From the NCBI GenBank assembly GCA_900319905.1, contig ONQB01000016.1, positions 1 to 63,379 of the forward strand: a stretch of DNA of 63,379 bases. Reading direction: 5' to 3'. The translations under genes were made by a program, and so were the position numbers. Position 1 is the stretch's first letter. Each line of letters begins with the position of its first letter. Origin of the DNA: an uncultured Prevotella sp. GTDB lineage: Bacteria > Bacteroidota > Bacteroidia > Bacteroidales > Bacteroidaceae. The notes under the pieces are model-generated. The model was not told where the DNA came from and did not search any database. It saw nothing but the letters and a program-made list of their open reading frames with translations. Positions 41,490 to 46,770 of this stretch are shown one piece after another.

Positions 41490-41590
41490 AGAGTATCGCC
41501 CATATCGAGCCGGAGTATCGCCGAAATGCCACCGGAGTATCGCCCATATTCCGTCGGAGTATCGCCGAAAAAGCAACGGCGTTTCGGCGA
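41490..41590. repeat. Dispersed short repeats with the core GGAGTATCGCC
   Basis: Three GGAGTATCGCC words (41512, 41537 and 41556 regions) and a first AGAGTATCGCC are spaced about 19-25 bp apart, interleaved with CATAT or GAAA. The family matches the ATCGGCGATAT cluster at 15075-15190 in the opposite orientation. The remaining gap to 41860 shows nothing recognisable. Confidence 0.6.
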
Positions 41591-41867: not shown

Positions 41868-41899
41868 TTTGTTGGTTTGAAAGAAATAGCGTAATTTTG
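41868..41899 (+). promoter_or_regulatory. Promoter of the Phe/Tyr biosynthesis operon
   Basis: TTTG (41868-41871), a 20-nt spacer and TAATTTTG (41892-41899). The predicted transcript starts near 41904, about 20 nt before the leader peptide ATG. Confidence 0.8.
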
Positions 41900-41925
41900 C
41901 AAACGATTTAAAACATCAATCACAT

Positions 41926-42000
41926 ATGAAGTATTACGCAACATATTCCTACTTTTATTTTTACTTTGCAAGCAATTGTGAAGCGGGAAGTTGCGTGTAA
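41926..42000 (+). CDS. Tyr/Phe-rich leader peptide of the pheA operon attenuator
   Basis: A 24-codon ORF. Six Tyr (residues 3, 4, 7, 9, 11, 13) and three Phe (10, 12, 14) make nine of the first 14 residues aromatic; the core reads YYATYSYFYFYF. The last ten residues (ASNCEAGSCV) contain no aromatics, and their codons form the 5' antiterminator arm. Ribosomes short of charged tRNA-Tyr or tRNA-Phe would stall in the first half. The gene is too short for normal gene calling. Its position, 100 bp before pheA, and the terminator that follows give it a clear role. Confidence 0.9.
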   Translation: MKYYATYSYFYFYFASNCEAGSCV

Positions 42001-42082
42001 ATTTCAACTTACGACAAACGATAGCAAATCCAAAATGGTTTACATCATAGTCCCGCTTCAAGTATCTTGAGGCGGGATTTTT
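41979..42082 (+). promoter_or_regulatory. Attenuator: alternative antiterminator and terminator structures
   Basis: The segment TGAAGCGGGA (41979-41988, inside the leader ORF) is exactly complementary to TCCCGCTTCA (42051-42060). The latter is also the 5' arm of a terminator: TCCCGCTTCAAG (42051-42062), TAT loop, CTTGAGGCGGGA (42066-42077), then TTTTT. If ribosomes stall at Tyr/Phe codons, the first pairing can form and transcription continues. If they reach the stop codon (41998-42000), they cover 41979-41988 and the terminator forms. Confidence 0.85.
42051..42082 (+). terminator. Intrinsic terminator of the Phe/Tyr leader
   Basis: A 12-bp stem with one G-U pair and a 3-nt loop, followed by five T residues. 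It lies 20 bp before pheA, so unregulated termination would silence the operon. Confidence 0.85.
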
Positions 42083-42101
42083 GATTTAACAGCACACAAC
42101 A

Positions 42102-42932
42102 ATGAAAAGAATAGCGATACAAGGCATCTTAGGTTCGTTCCACGACATTGCTGCCCACCAGTACTTCAACGGCGAGCAAGTGCAACTCATCTGCTGCGCC
42201 ACATTCGAAGAGGTGTTTGAGAACATCCACCGCGACCCTACTGTGATTGGCATGACAGCCATTGAGAACACCATTGCCGGATCGCTGCTCCACAACTACG
42301 AGCTGCTGCGTGCCAGCGGCGCGACCATTGTGGGAGAGCACAAGCTCCACATCACCCACAGCATCTGCTGTCTGCCCGACGACGACTGGTCGACACTGAG
42401 AGAGGTGCACTCCCACCCCGTGGCCCTCATGCAATGCCGCGACTACCTCGCCAACCACCCCGACCTCAAAGCTGTTGAAGCTGAGGACACCGCAGGCAGC
42501 GCCGAATACATCAGCAGCCATCAATGCCACGGATGGGCTGCCATCTGCCACGCCGACGCCGCAAAGATGTACGGACTGAAAGTGCTCGAAGACCACATTG
42601 AGGACAACAAGCACAACTTCACGCGCTTCCTCGTCGTCTCCGACCCTCGCAAGGCCGACTTCCTGCGGCCGCTCAACGAGGCCAACAAGGCCAGCATCGT
42701 CTTCTCACTGCCACATGAGGAAGGATCACTGTCGAAGGTGCTCACCATTCTCAGCTTCTACGACATCAACCTCACCAAGATACAATCGCTGCCCGTCATC
42801 GGACACGAATGGGAATATCTGTTCTACGTCGACGTCACCTACGAGGACCTCATACGCTACCGGCAGGCCATCGACGCCATCACACCACTCGTGAAACGCA
42901 TCAAGATACTGGGCGAATACAAGGCTTCCTGA
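42102..42932 (+). CDS. pheA: Prephenate dehydratase
   Basis: Converts prephenate to phenylpyruvate in Phe synthesis. The dehydratase domain opens with AIQGILGSFHDIAAHQYF and contains ENTIAGSLLHNYELL and the catalytic Thr in HNFTRFLVVSD. An ACT domain follows from about residue 192 (KASIVFSLPHEEGSLSKVL). In the Phe-binding ESRP position it has QSLP, and the GALV position reads EGSL, so classical Phe feedback may be altered. There is no chorismate mutase part; that activity is fused to the DAHP synthase three genes on. It is the first structural gene after the attenuator. Confidence 0.95.
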   Translation: MKRIAIQGILGSFHDIAAHQYFNGEQVQLICCATFEEVFENIHRDPTVIGMTAIENTIAGSLLHNYELLRASGATIVGEHKLHITHSICCLPDDDWSTLREVHSHPVALMQCRDYLANHPDLKAVEAEDTAGSAEYISSHQCHGWAAICHADAAKMYGLKVLEDHIEDNKHNFTRFLVVSDPRKADFLRPLNEANKASIVFSLPHEEGSLSKVLTILSFYDINLTKIQSLPVIGHEWEYLFYVDVTYEDLIRYRQAIDAITPLVKRIKILGEYKAS

Positions 42933-42997: not shown

Positions 42998-44167
42998 ATG
43001 AAACCAGCAGACAGAGTAAACAGCATACAGGAGTATTACTTCAGTCGCAAGCTCAAGGAAGTGGCGCGGCTCAACGCTGAGGGTCAGGACATCATCTCAC
43101 TGGCCATCGGCTCGCCCGACATGCCGCCGTCGAAGCAGACGATTGACAAGTTGTGCGAGGTGGCCCGTGACCCCAACGCCCATGGCTACCAGCCCACCAG
43201 TGGCCTGCCGGAGCTGCACGAGGCAATGGCCGGTTTCTACAAGCGTGTCTACGGCGTCGACCTCGACCCCATGCGCGAGATTCAGCCCATCATCGGCTCC
43301 AAGGAAGGCATCATGTATGTCACGCTCGCCTTCTGCAACGCAGGCGACGAAGTGCTTGTCCCCGACCCGGGGTACCCCACTTACACAGCTGTCAACAAAC
43401 TGTTCGGCACGAAGATCGTCAACTATGACCTGAGGGAGGACAACGGATGGCAACCCGACTTCGACCAGCTCGAGAAGATGGACCTGAGCCGCGTCAAGGT
43501 GATGTGGGCCAACTACCCCAACATGCCCACCGGTGGTAATGCACGACGGGAGACGTTGGAAAGACTCGTAGACTTCGCCCGGCGGCACGACATACTCGTG
43601 GTCAATGACAACCCCTATTCGCTCATCCTCAACGACCACCCCATGAGCCTCATGCAGGTGCCTGGTGCCAAGGACTGTTGCGTGGAGTTCAACTCAATGT
43701 CGAAAAGCCATAACATGCCGGGATGGCGAGTCGCCATGATGGTAAGCAACCCAGAGTACATCTCATGGATGTTCAAGATACAGAGCAACATCGAGAACGG
43801 CACGTTCCGAGGCATACAACTGGCCGCTGCCGAGGCGTTCAACACCAACACGCCCGACTGGCACCGCGAAAACAACATCGAGAACTACCATCGCCGCCGC
43901 GTCATTGCCGAGGACATCATGCGAGCATTAGGCTGCACCTTCGACCCCACGCAGGTCGGCATGTTCCTCTGGGGCAAGATTCCCGACCGCTACGACAATG
44001 TGGAAGATCTCACGGAGGCTGTGCTCCACAAGGCCCGTGTCTTCATCACCCCCGGCTTCATTTTCGGCAACAACGGCAAGCGCTACATCCGCATCAGCCT
44101 CTGTGCCAAGGATGACAAGATGCAAGAGGCGCTGCGAAGAATCAGGCAGATGGTAGAATTAGGTTAA
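42998..44167 (+). CDS. Class I/II aminotransferase, probably aromatic or aspartate-type
   Basis: A PLP-dependent aminotransferase of 389 aa, fold type I. Visible landmarks are IGSPDMPPSKQTIDKL near the N-terminus, NYPNMPTGGNARRETLERL (the NPTG-like motif as NMPTG), the VVNDNPYSLI segment with the PLP Asp and the Schiff-base lysine in FNSMSKSHNMPGWRVAMM. It sits between pheA and the DAHP synthase gene, so transamination of phenylpyruvate and hydroxyphenylpyruvate is the likely role. The sequence also resembles LL-diaminopimelate aminotransferases, so substrate is not certain. Confidence 0.85.
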   Translation: MKPADRVNSIQEYYFSRKLKEVARLNAEGQDIISLAIGSPDMPPSKQTIDKLCEVARDPNAHGYQPTSGLPELHEAMAGFYKRVYGVDLDPMREIQPIIGSKEGIMYVTLAFCNAGDEVLVPDPGYPTYTAVNKLFGTKIVNYDLREDNGWQPDFDQLEKMDLSRVKVMWANYPNMPTGGNARRETLERLVDFARRHDILVVNDNPYSLILNDHPMSLMQVPGAKDCCVEFNSMSKSHNMPGWRVAMMVSNPEYISWMFKIQSNIENGTFRGIQLAAAEAFNTNTPDWHRENNIENYHRRRVIAEDIMRALGCTFDPTQVGMFLWGKIPDRYDNVEDLTEAVLHKARVFITPGFIFGNNGKRYIRISLCAKDDKMQEALRRIRQMVELG

Positions 44168-44205: not shown

Positions 44206-44548
44206 TCCCGCCTACTAGTGCCTGCTAGTGCCTACCAGTGCCTGCTAGTGCCTACCCCGCCTACTAGTGCCTACCCCGCCTACCAGTGCCTACCAGTGCC
44301 TACCAGTGCCTACCAGTGCCTACCAGTGCCTACCAGTGCCTACCAGTGCCTACTAGTGCCTACCAGTGCCTACTAGTGCCTACCAGTGCCTACCAGGCCT
44401 ACTAGTGCCTACCCCGCCTACTAGTGCCTACCAGTGCCTACCAGTGCCTACCCCGCCTACTAGTGCCTACTAGTGCCTACCCCGCCTACTAGTGCCTACC
44501 AGTGCCTACCCCGCCTACTAGTGCCTACTAGTGCCTACCCCGCCTACA
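44206..44548. repeat. GCCTACC-type tandem array 2, inside the Phe/Tyr operon
   Basis: About 35 units of 9-10 bp. The main forms are TGCCTACCAG, TGCCTACTAG and CGCCTACC-type units, including six or more identical TGCCTACCAG in a row near 44284-44350. It separates the aminotransferase gene from the DAHP synthase gene by ~400 bp. A reading frame runs through it into the synthase gene but codes only for Pro/Ala/Tyr/Cys repeats, so it is not taken as coding. Confidence 0.9.
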
Positions 44549-44574: not shown

Positions 44575-45642
44575 ATGGAATTAGATCTCGAACCCCTCAA
44601 CTTGCCGTCAGACAACGGCGAACGTCCCATCGTAATCGCAGGCCCCTGTTCTGCTGAGACCGAGGAACAAGTGATGACCACCGCACGGCAGCTGGCCAAT
44701 AAAGGCTGCCACATATTCCGTGCAGGCATCTGGAAGCCACGCACCAAACCCGGAGGCTTTGAGGGCAACGGCGAAGCCGCCCTGCCCTGGATGCAGGAAG
44801 TGAAGAAAGAAACAGGCATGCTCACAGCCACCGAGGTGGCCACACCCGAGCATGTCGAACTGGCACAGAAATACGGCATCGACATCCTGTGGATCGGTGC
44901 ACGCACCTCGGCCAACCCCTTCGCCATGCAGGACCTCGCCGACAGCCTCAAAGGATACGACGGTCCCGTACTGGTCAAGAACCCGGTCAACCCCGACCTC
45001 GAACTCTGGATCGGTGCCATGCAACGCCTCAACCAGGCCGGAATCAAGCGACTGGGAGCCATCCACCGCGGATTCTCCAGCTACGACAAGAAGATATACC
45101 GCAACCTGCCAATGTGGCAGATACCCATCGAGCTGCACCGACGCATACCCAACCTGCCCATCATCTGCGACCCAAGCCATATTGGTGGCCGGCGCGACCT
45201 CATCGCACCCCTATGCCAGCAAGCCATGGACCTCGGCTTCGACGGCCTCATCGTCGAAAGTCACTGCGACCCTGACTGCGCTTGGAGCGATGCTAAACAG
45301 CAGATCACGCCCAACATCCTCGACTACATCTTGAGTCTGCTCGTCGTCAGAAGCGAGCATACCACAACAGAAGGACTGCGGCAGCTGCGCTCGCAGATCG
45401 ATGAGATTGACAACCAGCTCATGGACCTCATGGCCAAGCGCCTGCGCGTATGCCGAGAGATTGGTACATTTAAGAAAGAACACAACATGACTGTGCTGCA
45501 GGCCGGGCGCTACAACGAAATCCTTGAGAAGAGAGGCGCACAGGCATCACTCTGCGGCATGTCGCCCGAGTTTGCCGCGCACGTCTTCGAACTCATCCAC
45601 GAAGAGAGCGTACGGCAGCAACTACAAATCGTAAACGAATAG
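44575..45642 (+). CDS. Bifunctional DAHP synthase / chorismate mutase
   Basis: The N-terminal ~265 residues are a KDSA-type 3-deoxy-7-phosphoheptulonate synthase with VIAGPCSAETEEQ, the FRAGIWKPRTKPGGFEG stretch, VKNPVNPDLELWIGA and CDPSHIGGRRDLI. The C-terminal ~90 residues are an AroQ-type chorismate mutase (LRSQIDEIDNQLMDLMAKRL). The fusion joins the first step of the shikimate pathway to the branch point leading to prephenate. ATG 44575 (MELDLEPLNLP) is chosen because upstream in-frame sequence is tandem repeat. tyrA follows after 4 bp. Confidence 0.95.
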   Translation: MELDLEPLNLPSDNGERPIVIAGPCSAETEEQVMTTARQLANKGCHIFRAGIWKPRTKPGGFEGNGEAALPWMQEVKKETGMLTATEVATPEHVELAQKYGIDILWIGARTSANPFAMQDLADSLKGYDGPVLVKNPVNPDLELWIGAMQRLNQAGIKRLGAIHRGFSSYDKKIYRNLPMWQIPIELHRRIPNLPIICDPSHIGGRRDLIAPLCQQAMDLGFDGLIVESHCDPDCAWSDAKQQITPNILDYILSLLVVRSEHTTTEGLRQLRSQIDEIDNQLMDLMAKRLRVCREIGTFKKEHNMTVLQAGRYNEILEKRGAQASLCGMSPEFAAHVFELIHEESVRQQLQIVNE

Positions 45643-45646
45643 ATAT

Positions 45647-46429
45647 ATGAAGATTCTCGTGATGGGAGCCGGAAAGATGGGCTCCTTCTTCATCGACCTG
45701 CTCAGTTTCGACCACGATGTGGCCGTCATTGAGCAGGATCCGAAGCGCATGCGCTTCACCTACAACTGTCAGCGCTTCACATCCATGGACGAGGTGAAGG
45801 CCTTCGCACCCGAACTGGTCATTAATGCCGTGACAGTGAAGTACACCATACCTGCCTTCGAGCAGATCATGCCCTACCTGCCTAAGGACTGCATCATCTC
45901 TGACATCTCGTCAGTAAAGACCAGCCTCAAGGCCTTCTACGAACAGACCGGACATCCATACGTCTCCACCCACCCGATGTTCGGACCCACCTTTGCCAAT
46001 CTCAACCAGTTGTCCGAAGAAAACGCCATCATCATCAGCGAAGGCGACTACATGGGACGCATCTTCTTCAAAGATCTATATCAGCGGCTCGGACTGCACA
46101 TCTACGAATACACGTTTGAGGAGCACGACAAAACCGTGGCCTACTCGCTGAGCATTCCCTTTGTCTCCACTTTCGTCTTTGCAGCCGTGATGAAGCATCA
46201 GGACGCACCGGGCACGACGTTCAAGCGCCACATGCAGATCGCACGTGGTGTGCTCTCAGAAGACGACTATCTCCTCCAGGAGATTCTCTTCAACCCCTAC
46301 ACACACGATCAAGTGGCACAGATACGCAGCGAGCTCAAGGAACTACTGCAAATCATCGACAACAAAGACGCCGATGGAATGAAAGCCTATCTTACAAAGA
46401 TAAGACACAACGTAGCCGAACAGGAATAA
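45647..46429 (+). CDS. tyrA: Prephenate dehydrogenase
   Basis: Oxidises prephenate to hydroxyphenylpyruvate for Tyr synthesis. A Rossmann NAD-binding motif lies at the N-terminus (LVMGAGKMGSFF), followed by the prephenate-binding STHPMFGPTFANL and an all-helical dimerisation half. At 260 aa it is short, with no ACT domain, which agrees with control by attenuation rather than by Tyr binding to this enzyme (inference). It is the last operon gene, 4 bp after the DAHP synthase gene, and is followed by a long hairpin. Confidence 0.9.
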   Translation: MKILVMGAGKMGSFFIDLLSFDHDVAVIEQDPKRMRFTYNCQRFTSMDEVKAFAPELVINAVTVKYTIPAFEQIMPYLPKDCIISDISSVKTSLKAFYEQTGHPYVSTHPMFGPTFANLNQLSEENAIIISEGDYMGRIFFKDLYQRLGLHIYEYTFEEHDKTVAYSLSIPFVSTFVFAAVMKHQDAPGTTFKRHMQIARGVLSEDDYLLQEILFNPYTHDQVAQIRSELKELLQIIDNKDADGMKAYLTKIRHNVAEQE

Positions 46430-46459: not shown

Positions 46460-46499
46460 CATCATGGGGCATAGGCATTTTCGCCTGTGCCCCATGATG
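46460..46499 (+). terminator. Strong hairpin ending the Phe/Tyr operon
   Basis: CATCATGGGGCA (46460-46471) pairs with TGCCCCATGATG (46488-46499), and the inner AGGC/GCCT bases extend the stem around an ATTTTC loop. No T-tract is present. A GCCTACC tandem array starts directly at its end. Confidence 0.7.
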
Positions 46500-46770
46500 C
46501 CTACCTTGCCTACCCTTGCCTACCCCGCCTACCCTTGCCTACCCTGCCTACTCTCGCCTACCCCGCCTACCCCCGCCTACCCTTGCCTACCCTGCCTACT
46601 CTCGCCTACCCCGCCTACCCCGCCTACCCTTGCCTACCCCGCCTACCAGTGCCTACCCCCGCCTACCCTTGCCTACCCCCTACCCTTGCCTACTCTCGCC
46701 TACCCTGCCTACTCTTGCCTACCCCCCCGCCTACTCTGCCTACCCCGCCTACTCTTGCCTACCCTTGCCA
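46499..46770. repeat. GCCTACC-type tandem array 3
   Basis: About 30 units of 9-10 bp, mainly TGCCTACCCT, CGCCTACCC and CGCCTACTC forms. It lies between the tyrA hairpin and the ffh promoter. All three frames are open on the plus strand and give Pro/Tyr/Leu/Ala repeats; none is credible coding. Confidence 0.9.

Follow-up and report, generated by a model that had tools for sequence, protein, structure and literature searches.

RESULTS

The pheA leader region and its operon

The window, which is the whole 63,379-nucleotide stretch of DNA that was analyzed, includes an aromatic operon. It is headed by pheA, behind which lie, on the same strand, an aminotransferase gene, a gene for a fused DAHP synthase–chorismate mutase, and tyrA. 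The genes, the leader ahead of pheA and its RNA elements are given below with the evidence used for each.

41868–41899, plus strand: promoter-like TTTG, 20 nt, TAATTTTG (sequence; motif enrichment upstream of leaders)
41926–42000, plus strand: leader peptide open reading frame (ORF), MKYYATYSYFYFYFASNCEAGSCV and stop (sequence; aromatic leader kept across Bacteroidia)
41932–41967, plus strand: aromatic codon run, Y3 to F14, the proposed sensor
41936–41942, plus strand: possible segment 1 (ACGCAAC), weak, partner 41990–41996 (predicted MFE fold)
41979–41988, plus strand: antiterminator 5′ arm (segment 2), within the leader ORF (complementarity, covariation, geometry)
41988–42010, plus strand: small hairpin AAGTTG:CAACTT at the leader stop codon (pairing frequency, double-sided changes)
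42049–42082, plus strand: intrinsic terminator (segments 3:4) (sequence, terminator scan, covariation)
42102–42932, plus strand: pheA, prephenate dehydratase (NCBIfam PRK11898 and Pfam PDT PF00800)
42998–44167, plus strand: class I/II aminotransferase, presumed aromatic (profile match)
44575–45642, plus strand: DAHP synthase–chorismate mutase fusion (ORF list, profile match)
45647–46429, plus strand: tyrA, prephenate dehydrogenase (profile matches, all under curated cutoffs)

For pheA, the best NCBIfam match (PRK11898) reached 193 bits and was under the cutoff of 219, while PF00800 (PDT) was above its cutoff. The ORF of the DAHP synthase fusion was listed from a GTG at 44473. It extends upstream to this GTG within the first of two tandem-repeat arrays, and the ATG at 44575 is the more likely start. 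The two arrays (44207–44539 and 46498–46769) are alike and consist of 10-bp units (GCCTACCAGT / TGCCTACCCT). The first is located in the gap 5′ of the DAHP synthase gene, the second 3′ of tyrA, and the ORFs listed over them look spurious.

The leader ORF starts with the ATG at 41926–41928, has 24 codons and ends with the TAA at 41998–42000. Its product MKYYATYSYFYFYFASNCEAGSCV contains the aromatic residues Y3, Y4, Y7, Y9, F10, Y11, F12, Y13 and F14. Thus the 24-residue peptide with nine aromatic residues among the first 14, described in a first-pass annotation of this DNA, is indeed present at 41926–42000. When the genome of the window (86% complete) was searched with the aromatic-run pattern, the only exact match was the leader itself. 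With one mismatch allowed, three matches were found, compared with seven for the reversed pattern used as a control.

Upstream of the leader, TTTG (41868–41871) is followed after 20 nt by TAATTTTG (41892–41899), a promoter-like pair of the Bacteroidota (Bacteroides) −33/−7 consensus type. For 208 of 241 leaders (counting near-copies), the motif TAnnTTTG was present in the 90 nt 5′ of the leader, compared with 386 of 4820 shuffled sequences. Its median position was 36 nt before the leader start in the loci of the window's genus and of other Bacteroidia. Scanning for sigma-70 promoters with E. coli-type hexamers yielded no site at the leader and, overall, fewer sites than shuffled sequences did. 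Another tandem repeat, with a 22-bp unit (GAGTATCGCC...), was observed at 41491–41566, about 300 bp 5′ of the leader promoter.

Terminator and antiterminator at the locus

TGAAGCGGGA at 41979–41988 and TCCCGCTTCA at 42051–42060 are fully complementary in antiparallel orientation, which reproduces the perfect 10-bp pairing reported earlier. The 3′ arm of this antiterminator is part of the 5′ arm of the terminator, and the two pairings are mutually exclusive. The terminator stem covers 42049–42079 with 14 pairs by scan (a count that includes two T's at the start of the tail), and the T run lies at 42078–42082. This agrees with the intrinsic terminator and T-tract proposed before. Scanning 7.1 kb revealed 6 terminator-like sites compared with 5.3 in shuffles, and therefore the scan alone proves nothing. 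The leader terminator had by far the longest stem among these 6 sites. The fold of the leader RNA had a z-score of −4.6, and none of 200 shuffles was equally stable.

Two further pairings were considered. A small hairpin at the leader stop codon is formed by AAGTTG (41988–41993) and CAACTT (42005–42010), and its first A is the last base of the antiterminator arm. A possible 1:2 hairpin (41936–41942 with 41990–41996) appears in the MFE fold and is weaker.

Conservation in the Prevotella group

Loci of the genus were collected in two sets. For the first, 149 genomes including the window's own were searched; 98 of them matched, and 90 places were taken (L001–L090). The second consisted of the best 80 of 501 contigs (L091–L170) and overlaps with the first. 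A short ORF with at least six Phe/Tyr in 12 residues was found in 154 of the 156 distinct pheA upstream regions from these 170 loci and the window. The remaining two, L063 and L131, had no aromatic short ORF upstream of pheA. We also applied a stricter rule, an ATG ORF with at least six Phe/Tyr in 10 residues within the last 450 nt upstream of pheA. By this rule, 135 of the 138 distinct loci of the Prevotella group have a leader, compared with 10 of 2760 dinucleotide-shuffled upstream regions. Three genus loci fail the stricter rule; two of them are L063 and L131, the loci lacking a leader.

In five loci (L006, L113, L053, L057 and L061) the reading frame is altered past the aromatic run and GTGAAGCGG is retained. 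L124 and L148 carry GAAGTGG in the arm and CCACTTC in the terminator, which are compensated changes. Judged from these alignments, conservation past the aromatic run acts on the RNA and not on the peptide. The first-pass annotation had suggested aligning the pheA upstream regions of relatives. Such alignments revealed conservation of the leader ORF and of its aromatic codons, together with compensatory changes in both pairings.

Covariation and pairing tests

Covariation in the genus was analyzed with 124 distinct sequences in a MAFFT alignment made in two pieces. In these rows, 90% of the antiterminator cells were paired, compared with 39–49% in slid registers. Two-sided changes were found in 6 of the 10 antiterminator pairs, amounting to 18 cells against a shuffle mean of 4, and none of 300 shuffles reached 18, although shuffles are no strict test here, with rows that are related. 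Further pair types were not above shuffles, 166 of 300 of which reached the observed count. For the terminator, 131 cells had two-sided changes compared with a shuffle mean of 62, a number that was again reached by none of 300 shuffles. The predicted antiterminator is mutually exclusive with the terminator and is conserved by covariation.

The hairpin at the stop codon was paired in 78% of cells, with 20–45% in slides. Two-sided changes were seen in 33 cells (shuffle mean 12, reached by 0 of 300), whereas the −1 slide gave 31 cells at 45% paired; the number of pairs with double changes was not above shuffles. The 1:2 hairpin was paired in 66% of cells compared with 64% for the +2 slide, and was not taken as a firm protector element.

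Pairing was also tested in 75 loci outside the genus that have both leader and terminator. In a swap test, leaders paired better with their own terminator arm than with those of other loci (median z −1.8, Wilcoxon p 6e-14). The own partner ranked top in 14 of the 75 rows and was within the best 5% in 32. Since the swap test leaves composition effects, dinucleotide-shuffled versions of each locus's own leader were used in a second test. The native pairing was better than the shuffled ones at p ≤ 0.05 in 61 of 75 loci and at p ≤ 0.01 in 51. The other 14 of the 75 distant loci, including the Phe-only locus L264, were not better than shuffled at 0.05. By sequence, leader, terminator and antiterminator together are a real, complete and conserved predicted attenuator.

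Ribosome position and folding

In E. coli, the ribosome covers about 15 nt upstream and about 14 nt downstream of the first base in the P site. In the 75 distant loci, the median distance from the last aromatic codon to the antiterminator arm was 11 nt (10–90% range 7–14). Assuming the E. coli footprint, 5 nt or more of the arm would lie under a ribosome positioned at the stop codon in 71 of the 75 loci; for a ribosome held at the last aromatic codon, this was the case in 1 of 75. The arm begins about 11 nt past the last aromatic codon; therefore a stalled ribosome would leave it accessible and a terminating one would cover it. This spacing is in line with the earlier proposal that the stop codon is placed such that a finishing ribosome masks the arm and a stalled one does not. 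With F14 in its A site, a ribosome on the window's leader would have its leading edge near 41976, right before the arm, and a ribosome at the leader stop would cover 41980–42009.

Folding was calculated for the stage at which the 3′ arm of the terminator is still missing from the transcript. The antiterminator probability was then 0.93–0.98 with a stalled ribosome and 0 when the ribosome occupied the stop codon. With no ribosome on it, the whole transcript at this stage gave 0.61, so that a clear off-state of untranslated RNA is not evident. At equilibrium, the terminator had −19.7 kcal/mol compared with −14.4 kcal/mol for the antiterminator, or about −17.9 together with the small hairpin. Once the terminator is fully made, it wins in all ribosome states. 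Since the terminator is stronger at equilibrium, the switch must act kinetically, during transcription.

We estimate the probability at about 0.9 that the leader region acts as a transcription attenuator of the ribosome-mediated type, responding to both Phe and Tyr, for the genes from pheA through the aminotransferase and the DAHP synthase/chorismate mutase to tyrA. In cells well supplied with Phe and Tyr, the ribosome would complete the leader and mask the arm 41979–41988 at the stop codon. The terminator could then form, and transcription would stop near 42082. If charged tRNA-Phe or tRNA-Tyr ran short, the ribosome would stall in codons 3–14 with its leading edge just short of 41979. The free arm would pair with the nascent 42051–42060, and the polymerase would continue into pheA.

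Alternatively, the leader peptide or its ribosome might act on translation or re-initiation of pheA, with the hairpin and T run being incidental. Leader ORFs have been proposed to work by ribosome re-initiation (PMC4833913). However, the distance from the leader stop to the pheA start is 101 nt, compared with the peak at 11–14 nt described for Bacteroidetes in the same article. Against an incidental hairpin, the terminator is conserved and its stem covaries, and the partner of the antiterminator is the terminator arm and not the pheA start. We regard an effect on pheA translation as improbable.

Leaders across the class Bacteroidia

A prephenate dehydratase was found in 89 of 296 genomes of the class Bacteroidia. 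Loci L171–L270 were taken from Bacteroidia genomes with this enzyme and from order-level relatives. By the stricter rule, an aromatic leader was present in 73 of 99 other Bacteroidia loci, compared with 15 of 1980 dinucleotide-shuffled upstream regions; over the genus and the other Bacteroidia, 25 of 4740 shuffled regions had one. Conservation of the predicted leader extends past the Prevotellaceae to the class Bacteroidia.

No aromatic leader was found by the stricter rule in 26 of the 99 other Bacteroidia loci. Ten leaderless loci have only an aminotransferase after pheA in the fetched stretch (L176, L181, L182, L191, L197, L200, L209, L212, L223 and L247), five have a distant PheA with at most 30% identity (L171, L178, L218, L226 and L246), and L217 and L242 have a stand-alone pheA. 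A weaker leader with four aromatics in 10 residues was seen in L184, L208 and L210, and the leader of L195, which has a GTG start, was recognized by eye. The operons L173, L234, L238, L240 and L241 had no leader by the stricter rule, and a further operon, L419, had none either. Outside the class, a leader was found in none of 29 pheA loci, an uneven sample made up of the 30 best-scoring loci minus L329, which lies inside the class (215 of 247 genomes had a pheA match).

Phe and Tyr content follows the operon genes

We compared leaders ahead of pheA with at least one other aromatic gene to leaders ahead of pheA without such a gene in the stretch covered. The first group comprised 107 leaders, 71 from L171–L270 (of which L194 and L214 belong to the window's genus) and 36 chosen, so that 105 were outside the genus. 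Genome repeats and near-copies (L377, L382, L404–L411) were left out, and their leaders also have Tyr. Tyr was present in the densest ten residues of all 107 operon leaders. In contrast, the densest run was Phe-only in all five leaders ahead of a stand-alone pheA (L252, L255, L264, L366 and L415) and in 0 of 107 others (Fisher p 7e-9, ignoring kinship). L415 has one Tyr 5′ of its Phe run. In the genus, all 149 leaders (near-copies included) contain both Phe and Tyr. A PheA tree included three of the five Phe-only loci, L252, L255 and L264, which stand apart, and well-supported branches forced three changes; L366 and L415 belong to the genera of L255 and L264.

Two of the Phe-only genomes have a separate DAHP synthase operon with its own leader, in which Tyr exceeds Phe. 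In G117, the leader MIKNISVFAYFYYYFYFSKK precedes aminotransferase–DAHP synthase–tyrA, and in G107 the leader MNNTFGYYAFYYYFFYNN precedes a tyrA-like gene (a weak tyrA match, E 5.7e-5) and DAHP synthase. In a further genome, G029, no pheA was found, and a leader with more Tyr than Phe precedes an aminotransferase–DAHP synthase–tyrA operon. The leader would thus read the amino acids its operon makes, and this match between content and operon is the strongest evidence. It also fits the suggestion of the first-pass annotation that dual sensing suits an operon with pheA and tyrA, as Phe plus Tyr content is tied to operons making both.

Eleven stand-alone pheA loci had no leader (L171, L178, L217, L218, L226, L242, L413, L414, L423, L424 and L425). 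Therefore, the Phe-only rule is limited to the five stand-alone loci with a leader. L413 and L414 (genomes G646 and G808) are from the same genus as G117 and have a leaderless stand-alone pheA. Thus, the leader was lost or gained inside one genus.

Eight Prevotella-group genomes without a pheA/tyrA match have a close DAHP synthase, with no such leader in about 1.5 kb upstream (L272–L278, L280). The ninth genome without a pheA/tyrA match, G005, had a distant DAHP synthase only (L283). Seven Prevotella-group genomes (G003, G010, G026, G061, G075, G076 and G084) of 99% completeness had no pheA/tyrA match to the window's proteins and kept a leaderless DAHP synthase; they are perhaps Phe/Tyr auxotrophs.

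Loss of the leader thus occurs, at these close DAHP synthase loci as in L063 and L131, and the window could in principle hold a partial terminator that works constitutively, with a leader that is a relic and no longer responsive in this genome. As leader, perfect 10-bp antiterminator and terminator are all intact in the window, we consider a relic very unlikely.

Search for known RNA families

At gathering score, no Rfam family matched the window or 12 further loci, including Phe_leader, Bacteroid-trp and T-box. A permissive scan of the window (E up to 10) gave seven weak matches, and none of them was Phe_leader, Bacteroid-trp or T-box. The best of these, rli38 (E 0.036, 28.8 bits compared with a cutoff of 49), aligned mainly over a terminator hairpin and was taken as chance. 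A ligand- or tRNA-binding leader (riboswitch or T-box) with a fortuitous short ORF would agree with a structured and stable leader RNA, yet it is hardly credible given these scans, the aromatic codons that are kept when the later peptide is not (L006, L113, L124, L148, L053, L057 and L061 leave the frame and keep the RNA arm) and the Phe-only or Phe plus Tyr content that tracks the downstream genes.

Short ORFs ahead of hisG and trpE-type genes

Eleven loci upstream of hisG were examined. Short ORFs with at least four His in 10 residues (e.g. MKKHLHIHHHAVPQG) were found in five of them (L338, L341, L344, L345 and L347), and none was found in the five Prevotella-group loci. These ORFs are likely candidates for His attenuators. 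Among 12 loci with anthranilate synthase-type (trpE-type) genes, the upstream short ORFs contained WWW in L349, L352 and L358 and WW in L357 and, in the Prevotella group, L353. The WWW ORFs are likely candidates for Trp attenuators.

DISCUSSION

The enterobacterial pheL-pheA attenuator (Rfam Phe_leader) uses aromatic leader codons and alternative antiterminator and terminator structures before pheA, and pheL reads Phe only. The window has the same layout of an aromatic-codon leader and an antiterminator opposed to a terminator ahead of pheA. Unlike pheL, its leader alternates Phe and Tyr, and the operon also has tyrA; the antiterminator arm lies inside the leader ORF, 5′ of the stop codon, and the region gave no Rfam match. 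Two mild peculiarities are therefore the dual amino acid reading and the position of the arm within the ORF.

In Bacteroidetes, Bacteroid-trp is an attenuator before trp genes, and a 2004 survey by Vitreschak and others reportedly lists Bacteroidetes/Chlorobi candidates. Bacteroid-trp belongs to a different operon by name and did not match the window. It is a cis-regulatory RNA of Bacteroidetes and an Rfam family, RF01692 (PMC2864571). A 2021 transcriptome study of Flavobacterium psychrophilum gives strong indications that amino acid operons are attenuated by leader peptides, and describes a conserved 5′ element without Rfam match upstream of pheA and hisG, also in other Flavobacteriaceae (PMC9723704). 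The F. psychrophilum pheA element is alike in phylum, gene and a structured 5′ region without Rfam match. The section of that article on 5′ cis-regulatory RNAs names no peptide, Phe/Tyr codons or antiterminator for pheA. The window is from the Prevotella lineage, unlike F. psychrophilum, and is described here with covariation, geometry and specificity tests. Given the F. psychrophilum findings (PMC9723704) and the Rfam family Bacteroid-trp (PMC2864571), this kind of regulation is already known in the phylum, and the first-pass description of an exceptional case for Bacteroidota was too strong.

Further short upstream ORFs ahead of aromatic pathway genes are described. The uORFC-13-1 motif upstream of aroF in Acholeplasma was presented as a possible attenuation mechanism (PMC8632094), and uORFs with F and Y codons were found before shikimate genes (PMC6429828). 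The former is from other bacteria. In B. thetaiotaomicron, 5′ UTRs hold ORFs reminiscent of leader peptides (PMC7366714). Our literature search, which covered open-licence papers without supplements, found no dual Phe/Tyr attenuator in Bacteroidota. As far as this search shows, the class-wide extent, the dual Phe/Tyr reading and the change with operon content are new.

Taken further, we lean towards a dual Phe/Tyr attenuator that would be ancestral to the Bacteroidia. Its codons would have been rewritten per operon, Phe-only once pheA leaves and Phe plus Tyr with tyrA or DAHP synthase following. Together with His and Trp leaders, such attenuators would be a main control of amino acid synthesis in the class, and ribosome and polymerase would follow each other closely at least in leaders.

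If the mechanism works as inferred, the aromatic operon of Prevotella is preceded by a natural sensor of Phe/Tyr supply. Attenuation of aromatic synthesis by leader peptides would then be widespread in the class, with no Rfam family marking it yet. The natural Phe-only and Phe/Tyr variants would allow a test of close ribosome–RNA polymerase following in Bacteroidota.
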